From: Leifsonia shinshuensis
Lineage (GTDB): Bacteria > Actinomycetota > Actinomycetes > Actinomycetales > Microbacteriaceae
Direction of reading: 5' to 3'
Length of the DNA: 64,000 nucleotides
Assembly (NCBI RefSeq): GCF_014217625.1
Contig: NZ_CP043641.1
Coordinates: 4,216,001 to 4,280,000, forward strand
Under the pieces are notes generated by a model, which was not told the origin of the DNA, did not search any database, and saw only the letters and a program-made list of their open reading frames with translations. Positions within the stretch are counted from its first letter, which is position 1. Every line of letters starts with the position of its first letter. This document shows, piece by piece, positions 5,669-10,687 of the stretch. A program made the position numbers and the translations under genes.

Positions 5669-5818
5669 GGCAGTGCCTTTCGAGACGGGAACGGAGGTGC
5701 GATGATCCGTATGTGTCTCGCGCGCTGCTGCTTCGCCGAGCGCGGCTTCGTGCCCTTTTTTCGAGCACCGGGCCGTTGGACGGCCGGACCTGAGCAGTAT
5801 ATCCGCTGTCGACAGTGC

Positions 5819-5852
5819 GCCCGGTGTCGAAAGTGCAGCCCGGTGTCGAAAG
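5819..5852. repeat. Two 15-bp direct repeats GCCCGGTGTCGAAAG, 19-bp period
   Basis: GCCCGGTGTCGAAAG occurs at 5819-5833 and exactly again at 5838-5852; a related TGTCGAC lies at 5807-5813. The block lies between the divergent ThDP-enzyme and DGPF-protein genes, so it is a candidate regulator site. Confidence 0.7.
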
Positions 5853-5870
5853 GCGCCCCGCCCGTTCGAC
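5844..5870 (+). promoter_or_regulatory. Candidate ECF-type promoter of the DGPF/YCII gene
   Basis: TGTCGA (5844-5849), 17 nt, then CGAC (5867-5870), about 35 bp before the DGPF-protein start. This resembles the TGTCGA-type promoters described for ECF42 sigma factors, which accompany DGPF proteins. The match is from memory and no ECF42 gene is in the window. Confidence 0.35.
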
Positions 5871-5904
5871 GTCCAGGTGTTCGGCATCCACGAAAGGGAG
5901 AGAC

Positions 5905-6258
5905 ATGACCGGCTACCTGATCCTCATCTACGGCGACGAGACCCGCTGGGACGCCCTGGACGCCGACGGGCGCGCCGCGGTCGACGCGGCCCATCGGGCG
6001 TTCAACGAGAAGGCGGGCTCGGGGGTGCGCTCGGCGGGGGAGCTGCAGACGTCCTCCACGGCGACGACGGTCCGCACCGGCCCGGACGGTGAGCCACGGC
6101 CCACCGACGGGCCGTTCTCGGAGTCCAAGGAGGTCGTCGGCGGCTTCTACGTGATCGAAGCCGCGAGCCAGGAGGAGGCGGTCGCTCTGGCGAGCTCGCT
6201 GGCGGAGGCGCGGCAGGGGCATGGGGGGATTGAGGTCAGGCCGTTGGTGGGGCGCTGA
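5905..6258 (+). CDS. YCII/DGPF-domain protein
   Basis: 117 residues. It starts at ATG 5905 behind GAAAGGGAG and begins MTGYLILIYGDE. The DGPF signature is present (TDGPFSESKEVVGGFYVIEA, residues about 69-88). These small ferredoxin-fold proteins are of uncertain biochemical role and in Actinobacteria are often under ECF sigma control; a TGTCGA-type promoter candidate lies just upstream. The frame is also open to 5815, but the upstream part is not family-like. Confidence 0.85.
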   Translation: MTGYLILIYGDETRWDALDADGRAAVDAAHRAFNEKAGSGVRSAGELQTSSTATTVRTGPDGEPRPTDGPFSESKEVVGGFYVIEAASQEEAVALASSLAEARQGHGGIEVRPLVGR

Positions 6259-6305
6259 GGCAACGGAGGACTTCCGGGCCGACGCGCCCGGGGATCGCAG
6301 GGAGC

Positions 6306-6342
6306 GGAGGAGATCCGGTGTTGCGAAGGCCGGGTCTCCTCC
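6306..6342 (+). terminator. Hairpin between the DGPF and VOC genes
   Basis: GGAGGAGATCCGG and CCGGGTCTCCTCC form a 13-bp stem (one G-U pair) with an 11-nt loop. No U-tract follows, so it may be a transcript-end or stabilising hairpin rather than a classical terminator. Confidence 0.5.
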
Positions 6343-6388
6343 GGTCACTGCGGATGACAGGCAGCGGTGAGAGGAGGAGGATGCGCTC

Positions 6389-6769
6389 ATGACGGACGCT
6401 GGGATCATCGGGGTGAACACCATCGGCATCCCCGTGGCGGACCAGGACGTCGCCCTGGCCTTCTACCGGGACGTGCTCGGCTTCGAGGTGCGCGTGGACG
6501 CGCCGCTGCCGAACGGGCGCTGGATCATGCTGGCGCCGCCCGGGTCGGCGGTGTCGGTGTCGCTCGTGGTCGCGAGCGCGGACGTTCCGGCCGGGGTGGA
6601 GACGGGCATCCGGTTCGAGAGCCTGGACGCGGGCGGCACCCACGAGGAGCTGACCCGGCGCGGGGTGGCGGTGGGGGAGCTGCTGCGCTGGCCGGGGGTG
6701 CCGGCGATGTTCCAGGCGACGGACCCGGACGGGAACCGGTTCGAGGTGGTCGAGCGAGGGGCGGGCTAG
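6389..6769 (+). CDS. VOC (glyoxalase/bleomycin-resistance) superfamily protein
   Basis: 126 residues with the paired beta-alpha-beta-beta-beta units of the vicinal oxygen chelate fold. The first half has IPVADQDVALAFYRDVLGFE, and the end has ATDPDGNRFEVVER, the usual VOC closing motif with the metal-ligand glutamate. The start follows GGAGGAGG. Its 3' end overlaps the convergent ECF sigma gene by 4 bp. Substrate not predictable; enzymes and drug-binding proteins share this fold. Confidence 0.85.
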   Translation: MTDAGIIGVNTIGIPVADQDVALAFYRDVLGFEVRVDAPLPNGRWIMLAPPGSAVSVSLVVASADVPAGVETGIRFESLDAGGTHEELTRRGVAVGELLRWPGVPAMFQATDPDGNRFEVVERGAG

Positions 6770-7623
6770 ACCCGCACGCCGGCCAGGCGTGCCGGGTCGA
6801 ACAGCACGTCCAGCCCCACGATGCGACCGTCGGAGATGTCGAAGGCCATCACCGAGACCACCCGGCCGTCGACCACCGCGGCGACGCCCGGCCGGCCGTC
6901 GATGAGCACCGGCACCGAGCTCTGCGCGAGGCGCGCGGCGAGGGTCGCCTGCTCGGCGATGGCCGAGGCGCCCACGAGCGTCTGCAGCCGGCCGCGGCCG
7001 TAGTCGGCGTGCAGCACGGCCCCCTCGTCGAGCAGGGCAAGCAGCGCGGAGAGGTCGCCCTCGTGGACGGCGCGCAGCCACGCGTCGAGCACGCCGCGCT
7101 GCTCGCGTCGGGACGGCCGGGCGGGCGGCGCGTCCCGGAGCCGGCGGCGGGCGCGGGAGGCCAGTTGGCGCGCGGCGTCGGGGGACCGGTCGAGCGCGGC
7201 GGCGACCTCCTCGAACGGGAGGCCGAAGACGTCGTGCAGCACGAACGCGAGGCGTTCGGCGGGCGACAGCGTCTCCAGGACCACCAGGAGCGCGACGCTC
7301 ACCCGGTCGCCGAGCGCCGCCAGCTCCGCCGGGTCCCCGAGGTCGGAGACCGGCTCGTCCTGCCAGGGCAGGACCTCCCACGAACGCTCGCGGGTGCGTC
7401 GCGCGCTCTTGAGCTGGTCGAGGCAGACCCGGGAGACGACCGTCGTCAGCCAGGCGTCGAGGTTGTCGATCGTGGCGGCGTCCGCCCGCTGGAGGCGCAG
7501 CCAGGTCTCCTGCACGGCGTCGTCGGCGTCGGCTGCCGAGCCCAGGAGCCGGGTCGCGATCGCGCGCAACCGCGGCCGGGCGGTCTCGAACCGGTCGAGA
7601 AGCCTCGCGTCGTTCTCGGTCAT
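6766..7623 (-). CDS. ECF41-type RNA polymerase sigma factor with C-terminal SnoaL-like domain
   Basis: 285 residues. The sigma2 region (about 8-80: RLRAIATRLLG, DADDAVQETWLRLQRA) and sigma4 region (about 105-160: LETLSPAERLAFVLHDVFG, FEEVAAALDRSPDAARQL) are followed by a SnoaL/NTF2-like domain (about 180-280). This fusion is diagnostic of group ECF41, in which the extension controls sigma activity. The linker (VLPWQDEP) and the C-terminal motif (ADYGRGR) resemble, but do not exactly match, the ECF41 WLPEP and DGGGK motifs as I recall them. No anti-sigma gene is present, as expected. It is divergent from an NAD(P)-binding oxidoreductase, the classical ECF41 partner, with matched promoters in between. 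Confidence 0.9.
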   Translation of the reverse strand: MTENDARLLDRFETARPRLRAIATRLLGSAADADDAVQETWLRLQRADAATIDNLDAWLTTVVSRVCLDQLKSARRTRERSWEVLPWQDEPVSDLGDPAELAALGDRVSVALLVVLETLSPAERLAFVLHDVFGLPFEEVAAALDRSPDAARQLASRARRRLRDAPPARPSRREQRGVLDAWLRAVHEGDLSALLALLDEGAVLHADYGRGRLQTLVGASAIAEQATLAARLAQSSVPVLIDGRPGVAAVVDGRVVSVMAFDISDGRIVGLDVLFDPARLAGVRV

Positions 7624-7649
7624 GTCACATCCTCCGTGGCTCGGTCGTC
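7623..7649 (+). promoter_or_regulatory. ECF41 promoter for the oxidoreductase gene
   Basis: TGTCACA (7623-7629), 16-nt spacer, CGTC (7646-7649): this fits the published ECF41 consensus exactly. It fires toward the gene at 7695 with an expected leader of about 38 nt. Its -35 box overlaps the sigma gene's own start codon. Confidence 0.8.
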
Positions 7650-7657
7650 ACCCTATC

Positions 7658-7684
7658 GACGAGGCGGCGTGCCTCGATGTGACA
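7658..7684 (-). promoter_or_regulatory. ECF41 promoter for the sigma factor gene (autoregulation)
   Basis: On the reverse strand TGTCACA (7684-7678), 16-nt spacer, CGTC (7661-7658). It points at the sigma gene with a leader of about 28 nt. It overlaps the facing forward promoter, and its -35 sits next to the ribosome-binding site of the divergent gene. Confidence 0.8.
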
Positions 7685-7694
7685 GGAGGGGACA

Positions 7695-8486
7695 ATGGAC
7701 GGACGGATCCTGGTGACCGGCGGGACCGGCACCATCGGGCGGCGGCTGGTGCCGCTGTTGGAGGAACGCGGCGCGGTCGTGCGGGTGCTGACCCGGCACG
7801 CGCCCGACGCTGCGACGCAGGGCGCCGATCACCTGACCGGCGACGTGATGACCGGAGCGGGGCTCGGCGCCGCGATGGCCGGCACGGCGGTCGTCGTCCA
7901 CCTCGCCGGCGGCGCGAAGGGAGACGACGTCGCAGCGGCGAACGTCACAGCGGCTGCTGAGCGCGCGGGTGTGCGGCACGTGCTGACGCTCTCCGTGGTC
8001 GGCGCCGGCCGGATGCCGATCGGCTACTTCCGTGCCAAGGAGCAGGTGGAGGCGATCTTCGCGGCGTCGGCGGTCCCGTCGACCGTGCTGCGCGCGGCGC
8101 AGGTCCACCAGCTCGTGCTGCGGATGGCGGCCGGGCTGACGAAGCTGCCGGTCGCGCCGGCCCCACGCATCCGCTTCGAGCCGGTGGACGCGGAGGAGGT
8201 CGCCGAGCGGCTGGCCGAGCTCGCGCTGGGGGAGCCGGCGGGGCTCGCGGGGGAGCTGGCCGGCCCGGAGGTGCTGGAGGCCGAGGAGCTGCTGCGCCGG
8301 TACGCCGAGGCACGCGGCCTGCGCCGCCGCTTCGTGCGCTTCGGGCTGCCGGGAAAGGTCGGCGCGGCCTACCGCACCGACGCCAACCTGGCCGGCCCCG
8401 ACGCCGAGCGTGGCCGCATCACCTGGGCCGAATACCTCCGCTCGACGATCGAAGGGCACGTAAACGCCCCCAAAAGCGCGCTTTAG
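7695..8486 (+). CDS. NAD(P)-binding atypical SDR/NmrA-like oxidoreductase, ECF41 partner
   Basis: 263 residues. The N-terminal Rossmann motif is VTGGTGTIGRRL (TGxxGxxG type); a short-chain reductase-like core follows, lacking a clear YxxxK and resembling NmrA or atypical SDRs (YFRAKEQVEAIF). The start ATG 7695 is 4 nt after GGAGGGG. Divergence from an ECF41 sigma gene and the ECF41 promoter upstream make this the probable main regulon member; such partners are usually carboxymuconolactone decarboxylases, oxidoreductases or epimerases. Its last codons form the left arm of a 17-bp hairpin. Confidence 0.85.
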   Translation: MDGRILVTGGTGTIGRRLVPLLEERGAVVRVLTRHAPDAATQGADHLTGDVMTGAGLGAAMAGTAVVVHLAGGAKGDDVAAANVTAAAERAGVRHVLTLSVVGAGRMPIGYFRAKEQVEAIFAASAVPSTVLRAAQVHQLVLRMAAGLTKLPVAPAPRIRFEPVDAEEVAERLAELALGEPAGLAGELAGPEVLEAEELLRRYAEARGLRRRFVRFGLPGKVGAAYRTDANLAGPDAERGRITWAEYLRSTIEGHVNAPKSAL

Positions 8487-8523: not shown

Positions 8524-9573
8524 TCAGGCGGGGGCTGGGCCGCTGCTGTTGCGCACGATGAGCCGGGTCGGGAGGACGGAGGAGCGCACCGGCTCCGGCC
8601 TCCCCTCGATCTCGGCGATGAGCAGCTCGACCGCCCGGCGGCCGGTGGCCTCGAACTCCTGGTGGATGGTGGTCAGCGGAGGCCAGAACGAGTCAGACTC
8701 GGCCATGTCGTCGAAGCCGACCACGCTCACGTCGGCCGGAACGCGGCGGCCCGCCTCGTGCAGGGCGCGCAGCACGCCGAGCGCCATCTGGTCGTTCGCG
8801 GCGAACACCGCGGTGATCTCGGGGCGTGCGGCGATCTCCCGGCCGTATCCGTATCCCGCGGCCGTCGACCAGTCGCCGCGGAACACCTCAGGCACCGGAG
8901 CGCCTGCGGCCTCCAGAGTGTCCCGCCAGGCCTGCTCGCGGCGGGCCGCCGAGTACGAGTCGGCCGGGCCGGAGATGTGCCACACGGTCTCGTGGCCCAG
9001 CGACAGCAGGTGCTCGGTGGCCTGGCGTGCGCCCTCGGCCTGGTCGGTGTCCACCTGCGGGTAGTCCGGACGCTCGGTGGAGTCGATGACGACGACGGAG
9101 AGCCCGGACGGCAGCTCGACGTCGGCGCGGTCCACGATGTGCGCTTCGATGACGATGATGATCCCGTCCACCGCCTGCTCCAGCAGCCGGGTGAAAGCGA
9201 TGCTGACGTCCTGCTGGGTGGGTCGCTCCACCGGCACGACGGTGATCGAGTAGCCGGCGGTCGCTGCCGAGACGGCGATCGCGTCGAGCGTGCGCATGTT
9301 GCCGTAGGACGACAGCGTGAACATCACCACGCCGAGGTTGCGGAAGAGCCCGGAGCGCAGCGCCCGCGCCGCGCGGTTGGGGCGGTAGCCGAGCGCCTGC
9401 ATGGAGGCCAGGACCCGGTCGCGGGTGGCGGCCTCCACGTTGGTGAGGCCGTTGGCGACGCGCGAGACGGTCTGGGTGGAGACGCCGGCGTGCGCGGCGA
9501 CGTCGCCCAGCGACGGGCCGCGGGTGCGTCCGCCGCGGCGTGCGGGCGCCGGGTCGGCGATCGACTCGGTCAT
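8524..9573 (-). CDS. LacI-family transcriptional regulator of the beta-galactoside locus
   Basis: 349 residues from ATG 9573, preceded by GGGAGCT. The N-terminal HTH (PSLGDVAAHAGVSTQTVSRV) and hinge (YRPNRAARALRSG) are classic LacI; the rest is a periplasmic-binding-like effector domain (LGVVMFTLSSYGN, FAANDQMALGVLRAL, VSVVGFDDM). It is divergent from an ABC sugar transporter/GH35 operon, and two palindromic operators lie in the 184-bp gap, so it should be the galactoside-responsive repressor of that operon and possibly of itself. Confidence 0.93.
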   Translation of the reverse strand: MTESIADPAPARRGGRTRGPSLGDVAAHAGVSTQTVSRVANGLTNVEAATRDRVLASMQALGYRPNRAARALRSGLFRNLGVVMFTLSSYGNMRTLDAIAVSAATAGYSITVVPVERPTQQDVSIAFTRLLEQAVDGIIIVIEAHIVDRADVELPSGLSVVVIDSTERPDYPQVDTDQAEGARQATEHLLSLGHETVWHISGPADSYSAARREQAWRDTLEAAGAPVPEVFRGDWSTAAGYGYGREIAARPEITAVFAANDQMALGVLRALHEAGRRVPADVSVVGFDDMAESDSFWPPLTTIHQEFEATGRRAVELLIAEIEGRPEPVRSSVLPTRLIVRNSSGPAPA

Positions 9574-9645
9574 AGCTCCCCATTCTGGTGAAGGATCCCG
9601 CCGGAACCGGGTCGACGGACCGGGGGTCGAAAACTGCGCTTGCAT

Positions 9646-9663
9646 CATGTTGACGTCAACATG
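9646..9663. promoter_or_regulatory. LacI-type operator 1, perfect 18-bp palindrome
   Basis: CATGTTGACGTCAACATG is perfectly self-complementary and carries the central CG step typical of LacI-family operators. Confidence 0.8.
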
Positions 9664-9678
9664 CTAGGGTATGCAACC

Positions 9679-9698
9679 AGATGTTGACGTAAACATCT
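9679..9698. promoter_or_regulatory. LacI-type operator 2, near-perfect palindrome
   Basis: AGATGTTGACGTAAACATCT is palindromic except for one pair and shares the ATGTTGACGT core of operator 1. Centre-to-centre distance is 34 bp, about three helical turns, compatible with cooperative binding. Confidence 0.75.
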
Positions 9699-9757
9699 GC
9701 CGCGACCGCCGCGATGCACCGGCAGGGGCGGCGAGCACCGAATCACCGAGGAAGGCC

Positions 9758-10687
9758 ATGACAACGACGTCCCTCACGCCGACGGCCCCGCCGGCGTCCG
9801 CGCCGCGGCGGCGCCTCCGCCGCCCGCGCCGAGACTGGCGCGGCTGGGCCTTCGTGGCCCCGTTCCTGGTCGTGTTCGCCCTGATGATCGTCGCGCCGGT
9901 CGTCTACGCCCTCTACCTCAGCCTCTTCCGCCAGCAGCTCATCGGCGGCAACGCGTTCGTCGGGCTCGACAACTACGTCGCGCTGCTGCAGGACGGGAAG
10001 TTCTGGGAGTCCTTCGGCCGGGTCGCGCTCTTCCTGGTCGTCCAGGTGCCGATCATGCTCGCCCTCTCGCTCGTCGCGGCGCTCGCCCTCGACTCGGCCC
10101 GCCTGCACGGCGCCGGCTTCTTCCGCATCGCGCTGTTCCTGCCCTACGCCGTCCCCGGCGTCGTGGCCGCGTTGATCTGGGGCTTCATCTACGGCGACCA
10201 GTTCGGCCTGACGGCGAGCGTCAACCACCTGCTCGGCACGCAGCTGGCCCCGCTCGCCGGCCAGTGGATCCTCGGCTCGATCGGCAACATCGTGACCTGG
10301 GAGTTCATGGGCTACAACATGCTGATCTTCTACGCAGCGCTGCGGGTCATCCCGGGCGAGCTCTACGAGGCCGCCGAGATCGACGGCGCCGGCGCGTTCC
10401 GCACCGTGTTCAGCATCAAGCTGCCCGCGGTGCGCGGCGCGATCGTCATCGCGACGATCTTCTCGATCATCGGCAGCTTCCAGCTCTTCAACGAGCCGAA
10501 CCTGCTCAAGCAGCTGGCGCCCAACGCGATCAGCAGCTACTTCACCCCCAACATGTACGCCTACAACCTGTCGTTCGCCGGTCAGCAGTTCAACTACGCG
10601 GCCACGGTCGCGATCGTGATGGGCGTCATCACCGCGGTGATCGCCTACGTCGTCCAGCTCCGCGGCTCGCGCAAGGAGGTCCGCTGA
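9758..10687 (+). CDS. ABC sugar transporter permease, MalF-like
   Basis: 309 residues from ATG 9758 behind GAGGAAGG; an earlier in-frame start would lie inside operator 2. Six membrane helices are expected (for example GWAFVAPFLVVFALMIVAPVV). The EAA loop EAAEIDGAGAFRTVFSIKLP, which contacts the ATPase, sits about 90 residues from the C-terminus. The stop overlaps the next start by one base (TGATG), indicating coupled translation. Carbohydrate uptake type 1 family. Confidence 0.92.
   Translation: MTTTSLTPTAPPASAPRRRLRRPRRDWRGWAFVAPFLVVFALMIVAPVVYALYLSLFRQQLIGGNAFVGLDNYVALLQDGKFWESFGRVALFLVVQVPIMLALSLVAALALDSARLHGAGFFRIALFLPYAVPGVVAALIWGFIYGDQFGLTASVNHLLGTQLAPLAGQWILGSIGNIVTWEFMGYNMLIFYAALRVIPGELYEAAEIDGAGAFRTVFSIKLPAVRGAIVIATIFSIIGSFQLFNEPNLLKQLAPNAISSYFTPNMYAYNLSFAGQQFNYAATVAIVMGVITAVIAYVVQLRGSRKEVR

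Follow-up and report, generated by a model that had tools for sequence, protein, structure and literature searches.

A face-to-face promoter pair at the sigma locus

In a 64,000-nucleotide stretch of the Leifsonia shinshuensis genome (contig NZ_CP043641.1, positions 4,216,001 to 4,280,000; hereafter the window), a gene for a SigJ/ECF41-like extracytoplasmic function (ECF) sigma factor and a gene for an NAD(P)-binding oxidoreductase diverge from a 62-bp element in which two promoters face each other. A pattern search found TGTCACA-N16-CGTC at 7623-7649 on the forward strand and again at 7684-7658 on the reverse strand, where a preliminary description of this DNA had placed two ECF41 promoters, and each -35 box lies inside the leader of the other gene, as had also been pointed out there. 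The oxidoreductase assigned as partner of the sigma gene is indeed present as the NmrA/NAD-binding gene at 7695-8486. Two details needed correction. The forward -35 box (7623-7629) does not cover the sigma start codon (7621-7623) but has one base (7623) in common with it, and the promoters, described as converging, do face each other, but their transcripts would diverge without overlap from the predicted starts at 7658 (forward) and 7649 (reverse). The features of the locus are as follows.

6766..7623, reverse strand: gene for the SigJ/ECF41-like ECF sigma factor (285 aa; sigma2, sigma4 and a SnoaL-like C-terminal extension), start codon 7621-7623
7695..8486, forward strand: gene for the NAD(P)-binding oxidoreductase (NmrA / NAD_binding_10 / Epimerase; 263 aa), the COE partner
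7623..7684, both strands: face-to-face promoter dyad, 62 bp, TGTCACA-N16-CGTC-N8-GACG-N16-TGTGACA, axis between 7653 and 7654
7623..7629, forward strand: -35 box TGTCACA of the oxidoreductase promoter, base 7623 common to the sigma start codon
7646..7649, forward strand: -10 box CGTC of the oxidoreductase promoter
7650..7657: 8-bp centre between the two -10 boxes, ACCCTATC, purine first and pyrimidine last
7658..7661, reverse strand: -10 box CGTC of the sigma-gene promoter; the forward strand reads GACG, the predicted bases 1-4 of the oxidoreductase mRNA
7678..7684, reverse strand: -35 box TGTCACA of the sigma-gene promoter, within the oxidoreductase leader
7658, forward strand: predicted oxidoreductase +1 (G), base 9 past CGTC, leader 37 nt, from starts mapped elsewhere
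7649, reverse strand: predicted +1 (G) of the sigma transcript, leader 26 nt, from starts mapped elsewhere
7630..7635, reverse strand: Shine-Dalgarno GGAGGA of the sigma gene; the -35 box of the opposite promoter sits between GGAGGA and ATG
7684..7691, forward strand: Shine-Dalgarno AGGAGGGG of the oxidoreductase gene
7660..7676, forward strand: inverted repeat CGAGGC-N5-GCCTCG, a weakly indicated possible stem-loop at the 5' end of the oxidoreductase mRNA

The dyad contains two distinct CGTC elements 8 bp apart, not one symmetrical -10 box serving both directions, and the -35-to-+1 spans of both genes fit inside the same 62-bp segment, with predicted divergent starts 9 bp apart on opposite strands. 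Its two promoters are the sole matches to TGTCACA-N{14,18}-CGTC in the window, for which 0.17 matches are expected by chance and two or more appeared in 1 of 100 shuffles, and exact TGTCACA-N16-CGTC occurs at four sites in the 4.6-Mb genome. Given that exact sites are so rare in both window and genome, an opposed exact pair next to a matching sigma gene is not a product of chance. We conclude that the element is real, unusually rigid and widely conserved, and that it is probably a bidirectional promoter of one sigma factor.

Conservation of the 8-bp gap

We scanned about 85,000 species genomes (257 Gb) for exact boxes with N16 spacers and N{0,30} between the opposed -10 boxes, a pattern of 22 fixed bases for which we estimate, under uniform base composition, less than one chance match in 257 Gb. 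The scan returned at least 119 loci; counts given for scan loci, here and below, are among the matches listed. The gap between the -10 boxes was 8 bp in 114 of the 119, 9 in three, 11 in one and 12 in one, and the gap-8 loci came from seven phylum-level groups and had differing partner enzymes. By phylum, the gap was 8 in 75/78 loci of Actinomycetota, 28/28 of Pseudomonadota, 7/7 of Acidobacteriota, 1/2 of Chloroflexota, 1/1 each of Myxococcota, FCPU426 and Verrucomicrobiota, and 0/1 of Nitrospirota. The overlap, whose conservation the preliminary description had proposed to check in related genomes, is thus kept far beyond relatives.

A sigma gene adjoins 114 of the 119 dyads, and at the other five a carboxymuconolactone decarboxylase (CMD) gene alone was recognised (tblastn flank labels). 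The partners of these 114 dyad sigmas were CMD in 58, short-chain dehydrogenase/reductase (SDR) in 21 and PNPOx-type in 11 (8 within 150 bp of the dyad, 3 farther), besides one glyoxalase-like protein (labelled by eye) and two doubtful open reading frames (ORFs; label X1, probably a shadow ORF), while in 21 the partner was unrecognised or past the contig end. When the 114 listed sigmas and that of the window were thinned to less than 55% identity, 25 of 27 clusters had gap 8; at less than 50%, all 12 did. Outside the boxes, the sequence was mostly weakly conserved in 37 representatives drawn from the 113 gap-8 loci whose flanks were long enough; the clear exceptions were the purine that follows each CGTC and the sigma-gene Shine-Dalgarno, and a few other positions showed moderate bias.

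A second set of 118 loci was chosen by sigma protein, with queries from gap-8 loci (window, L059, L039). Of its rows, 60 relatives contributed 70, a 98-genome class sample 30 (of 37), Rhizobiaceae 11 (of 13) and Acidobacteriaceae 7 (of 8), motif-scan rows being excluded from the last two sets; L160 and L256 are the same locus, and the sigma of L015, from a relative, is identical to that of L069 in the scan. With one mismatch allowed per promoter, 28 of the 118 had an opposed pair, the gap being 8 in 23 and 9 in two. In the divergent subset (39 loci with a recognised divergent enzyme gene within 200 bp, all face-to-face pairs scored at gaps of 0-30), 31 loci reached a score of 17 or more out of 22; the gap was 8 in 25 of these and 9 in four, and single loci had gaps of 20 and 26 (L019 and L234, the centre of L234 resembling by eye a tandem duplication). 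Among 12 matches of at least 60% identity in the genus of the window, the gap was 8 in nine (L008-L015; L020 through L281) and 9 in three (L016-L018, L016 having one mismatched -10).

Some loci differ in the boxes themselves. A GTTAC-type -35 replaces TGTCACA on both sides in L254 (gap 9, a different symmetrical -35, one of the eight low-scoring divergent loci) and in L249 (by eye, gap about 18), and at one side only in L258 (gap 8). In these three, the box may have changed jointly with the sigma.

The spacing could in principle have been inherited from a single ancestral locus without selection, which we consider very unlikely. Dyads do cluster on the sigma tree (141 rows, quick method), where the dyad label changes 17 times, compared with 43 on average when labels were shuffled, and starred branches force at least 9 of the 17 changes; this clustering may reflect few origins and horizontal transfer. 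They form an SDR-type clade, to which the genus of the window and named Microbacteriaceae belong, and a CMD-type part that extends across phyla. However, gap length rarely changes though most spacer and centre positions vary, the sigmas of the 27 cluster representatives share a median identity of 46% and a minimum of 36%, and their partner families differ. Moreover, the likely initiator of operon-type promoters in close relatives shifts by one or two bases.

Predicted starts, possible competition and probable one-at-a-time initiation

The predicted starts fit those mapped at promoters with the same boxes. In the SMb20029-rpoE9 operon of Sinorhizobium meliloti, the start was mapped 9 nt past TGTCACA-N16-CGTC (PMC3616915), the promoter as printed has that start G as its last base (PMC6180224 Table 1), and the plasmid sequence confirms CGTC-ATGGTGTC-G. 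The mapped start is also a G in Bacillus licheniformis and Rhodobacter sphaeroides (Wecke 2012, PMC3426412), for which that paper gives leaders of 22/23 nt in its text and 31/32 nt in its Table 5; both differ by 9, consistent with Table 5 leaders having been counted from the -10 end. With +1 at base 9 and a gap of 8, each start G therefore lies opposite the last C of the other -10 box, and each transcript would begin with GACG, templated by the opposite -10. The usual transcription bubble extends from -11 to +2. Computed on this basis from the predicted starts, the two bubbles would cover 7647-7659 and 7648-7660, nearly one 13-bp segment. The 8-bp centre begins with a purine and ends with a pyrimidine in 112 of the 114 gap-8 loci, which places a pyrimidine at -1 on both strands, compared with 26% when the eight central letters were shuffled. 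Eight loci with other gaps give 16 directions, of which 8 have a pyrimidine-purine step at bases 8-9, 6 more have one at 9-10 and the remaining 2 have it in neither place.

Operon-type promoters behave differently. Of 11 such promoters in relatives, each lying over 900 bp upstream of the sigma gene, 10 carry T and 1 carries C after CGTC; by our reading of these 11 rows, a likely TG initiator floats from base 8 to base 11. The S. meliloti operon promoter has A after CGTC. Because the operon-type initiator floats, we rejected start-site choice alone as the cause of the fixed gap, which looks like a property of the pair and not of the single promoter. A general requirement for GACG at +1 was likewise rejected, since S. 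meliloti has GGAA.

The pyrimidines on both strands also bear on whether a single direction works, the other boxes being vestigial or a decoy, which we regard as unlikely. In its favour, in Rhizobiaceae the enzyme-directed -35, located between the Shine-Dalgarno and the start codon of the sigma gene, has one mismatch in 7 of 9 gap-8 loci and two mismatches in two further loci, while the sigma-directed -35 is exact in 8 of 9. As the enzyme-directed box is the mismatched one, output there may favour the sigma gene, yet the mismatched loci still keep both -10 boxes and the gap. In addition, Table 4 of Wecke 2012 (PMC3426412) has 36 sigma-gene and 41 COE promoters among its 55 divergent loci. Separately, in three Rhizobium plasmid matches (H6, H20, H22), the sigma match is in two pieces with no annotated gene, and the gene may be broken there.

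The geometry also invites an explanation by polymerase competition, the central suggestion of the preliminary description. The overlap would have been selected to couple autoregulation with output, such that rising output traffic throttles sigma synthesis and damps positive feedback. Occupation by one polymerase at a time does follow from the 62-bp geometry, on which two open complexes cannot coexist, and it is stated for sigma-70 bidirectional promoters (PMC12825309). Both promoters of the window are perfect consensus copies beside one sigma gene, and sigma-70 bidirectional promoters show competition at high activity and less noise (Warman 2026, PMC12825309). However, in the same paper, five Escherichia coli promoters showed no competition at basal activity, competition appearing once activity was raised, and competition requires overlap only, not an exact 8-bp gap; because overlap alone suffices, it does not explain the rigidity of the gap. 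Competition between the two promoters is physically likely and the dyad is plausible as a competition device, but selection of the overlap for that purpose is a serious possibility that we lean slightly against.

We also weighed whether the dyad is a binding site for a dimeric regulator, or the leader TGTGACA an RNA or translation element. In favour are the form of the element, a long inverted repeat, and a sigma start codon within -1 to +1 of the TGTGACA edge in 74 of 114 loci. Given that the conserved letters are known sigma promoter boxes, that the leader of the S. meliloti operon promoter is without TGTGACA and that most spacer positions vary, either is highly improbable. A full leader stem at a fixed position was found in 8 of 59 non-redundant leaders (shuffled mean 0.8, maximum 4), with letters in relatives other than those of the 7660-7676 repeat. 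In the SDR class alone, it was found in 1 of 10 (shuffled maximum 1), and the z-score of the window was -1.0, so a conserved 5' hairpin in the enzyme leader was rejected as part of the mechanism. The 7660-7676 repeat might possibly form an mRNA-protecting hairpin, for which the indications are weak.

Taken together, the 62-bp element probably acts as one bidirectional promoter served by the SigJ/ECF41-like sigma encoded next to it and firing in a single direction on each occasion, with a shared opening and mutual capping. Holoenzyme of this sigma would bind the element in either orientation, never two at once, and in each case would open an almost identical ~13-bp segment about the dyad axis. 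Initiation would occur at the G opposite the last C of the other -10, at 7658 rightwards into the oxidoreductase gene or at 7649 leftwards into the sigma gene. Active sigma would in this way co-induce its own gene and the partner enzyme through a single DNA opening, each binding event committing the polymerase to one direction and the -35/-10/initiator sequences of each side determining the split. While active sigma is scarce, neither direction would be expected to disturb the other; once it is abundant, each would cap its opposite.

Several points weigh against this reading. The floating operon initiator means that start choice at a single promoter does not by itself demand a gap of exactly 8. 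We found no mapped start at a dyad in the open-access literature, and no tested divergent pair is known, because the mapped promoters in Wecke 2012 (PMC3426412) are an operon promoter in R. sphaeroides and, in B. licheniformis, one whose genes appear to be in tandem, as suggested by the plasmid name ecf41Bli-ydfG. The element is also rare per genome. TGTCACA-N16-CGTC-N{15,45}-TGTGACA matched in two genomes of a 396-genome phylum sample and in two of a 198-genome order sample; the dyad of the window was a match in both samples, besides G443 (gap 11) and G666 (gap 8). The case for conservation therefore leans mainly on the scan of about 85,000 genomes and on the protein-chosen loci. The DNA scan demanded exact boxes and N16 spacers, and subgroups far from the window, L059 and L039 are under-sampled because the protein queries came from gap-8 loci. 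Finally, the gap was negative (-114, -65, -71) in 3 of the 28 opposed pairs among the protein-chosen loci, and 8 of the 39 divergent loci were without a clear opposed pair, scoring within two letters of the best of 15 shuffles.

The sigma subgroup and its relation to known systems

The sigma of the window has Pfam Sigma70_r2 and r4_2 matches above cut-off, with no sigma3 domain listed, and best matches the SigJ family model (residues 7-284, 254.6 bits, below the cut-off of 271). About 120 residues follow sigma4, in weak agreement with the SnoaL-like extension of ~100 aa in ECF41; the SnoaL_2 match scores 22.0 bits, below the Pfam cut-off of 27. The COE gene lies adjacent, with TGTCACA-N16-CGTC upstream of it, as in ECF41 loci. 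Sigma2, sigma4 and the start of the extension align with Mycobacterium tuberculosis SigJ (PDB 5xe7) over residues 10-220, but the SigJ linker reads WLPEP and that of the window protein WQDEP. WLPEP is highly conserved in the ECF41 linker (Wecke 2012, PMC3426412), and C-terminal NPDKL is reported to link to WLPEP in an inactive conformation (PMC7730460). The window protein has neither the ECF41 linker motif (YVGPWLPEP) nor NPDKL, for which it has DPARL. The ECF41 identity proposed in the preliminary description is therefore borne out by the promoter boxes and not by the canonical WLPEP signature of the protein, and the expectation of WLPEP throughout the family is contradicted by WQDEP.

This lack is shared by other dyad sigmas. 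Among the 102 of at least 200 aa from the scan, one (L054, gap 9) has W[LFMIV]P[EDQ]P and three have an NPDKL-like motif. Among tree members from the protein-based sets, 0 of 16 face-to-face loci carry W[LFMIV]P[EDQ]P versus 9 of 9 operon-type loci; of the loci with negative gaps, L180 and L197 have it and L257 does not. It is also absent from 31 of the 64 loci at which no promoter was recognised, although some of these, for example L021, L239 and L020, do have a dyad in other scoring, and from 8 of 12 with a sigma-directed promoter only. The face-to-face layout sits in a WLPEP-less part of the family that still uses ECF41 boxes. This part may belong to ECF41 or to another SnoaL-bearing group, of which ECF56, 205, 294 and 295 have been named (PMC8999054).

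A second ECF41-like sigma in the same genome (L002 / L181, G000:C1:1461727) is of operon type, has a WFPEP linker and begins ~980 bp downstream of an exact TGTCACA-N16-CGTC; two sigmas may therefore recognise the same promoters. A further exact site (L005, G000:C1:3676514) had no sigma gene recognised downstream within the locus, and sites like it were seen in G023 (similar flank, L276) and G027. Around the dyad genes, YCII-domain and glyoxalase-family protein genes (5815-6769) run towards the sigma gene, the glyoxalase-family gene overlapping it tail-to-tail by 4 bp. Beyond the oxidoreductase gene (8524-10687), a LacI-family regulator gene and an ABC-type permease gene (BPD_transp_1) are divergently oriented, and TGTTGACGT-like repeats lie in the interval separating them.

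The boxes and the COE partner are those of the ECF41 targets of Wecke 2012 (PMC3426412), where the divergent order <ECF< >COE> is reported for 55 loci, with the motif often ahead of both genes; an interlock at a fixed 8-bp gap is not mentioned in the main-text parts of that paper examined, and the open-access literature searched gave no description of this geometry. S. meliloti SMb20029-rpoE9 has the same boxes and a +1 at base 9 past CGTC, a G after a pyrimidine (PMC6180224, PMC3616915), but differs in its operon order, in lacking an opposed -10/-35 and in a sigma that keeps WLPDP and NPDKL. Sigma-70 bidirectional promoters have starts on opposite strands, 7-25 bp apart, with a single polymerase at any time and divergent mRNAs (PMC12825309, PMC10268837). 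There, both directions use one -10 that is itself symmetrical, and transcription start sites preferably lie 18, 10 or 23 bp apart (PMC12825309, PMC10268837), whereas the dyad of the window has two -10 boxes 8 bp apart, consensus -35 boxes on both sides, predicted starts 9 bp apart and one alternative sigma expected to serve both directions. A more speculative and rather doubtful extension would be that such dyads form a distinct promoter class, in which each -10 is the other's initiator over one melted segment. They would be a standard element of a SnoaL-bearing subgroup that has lost the WLPEP-NPDKL lock, the one-at-a-time promoter replacing the lock by limiting sigma self-amplification.

The exact opposed spacing across phyla, with differing enzymes, indicates that selection can act on a bidirectional promoter as a unit, and not on two promoters adjacent by chance. 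As a small element with perfect boxes and one expected sigma, the dyad is a clean system for asking how polymerase picks its direction and whether positive feedback is held in check by one-at-a-time initiation. For the family, the 62-bp dyad is a precise genomic marker of a sigma subgroup that would escape the classical ECF41 linker motif.

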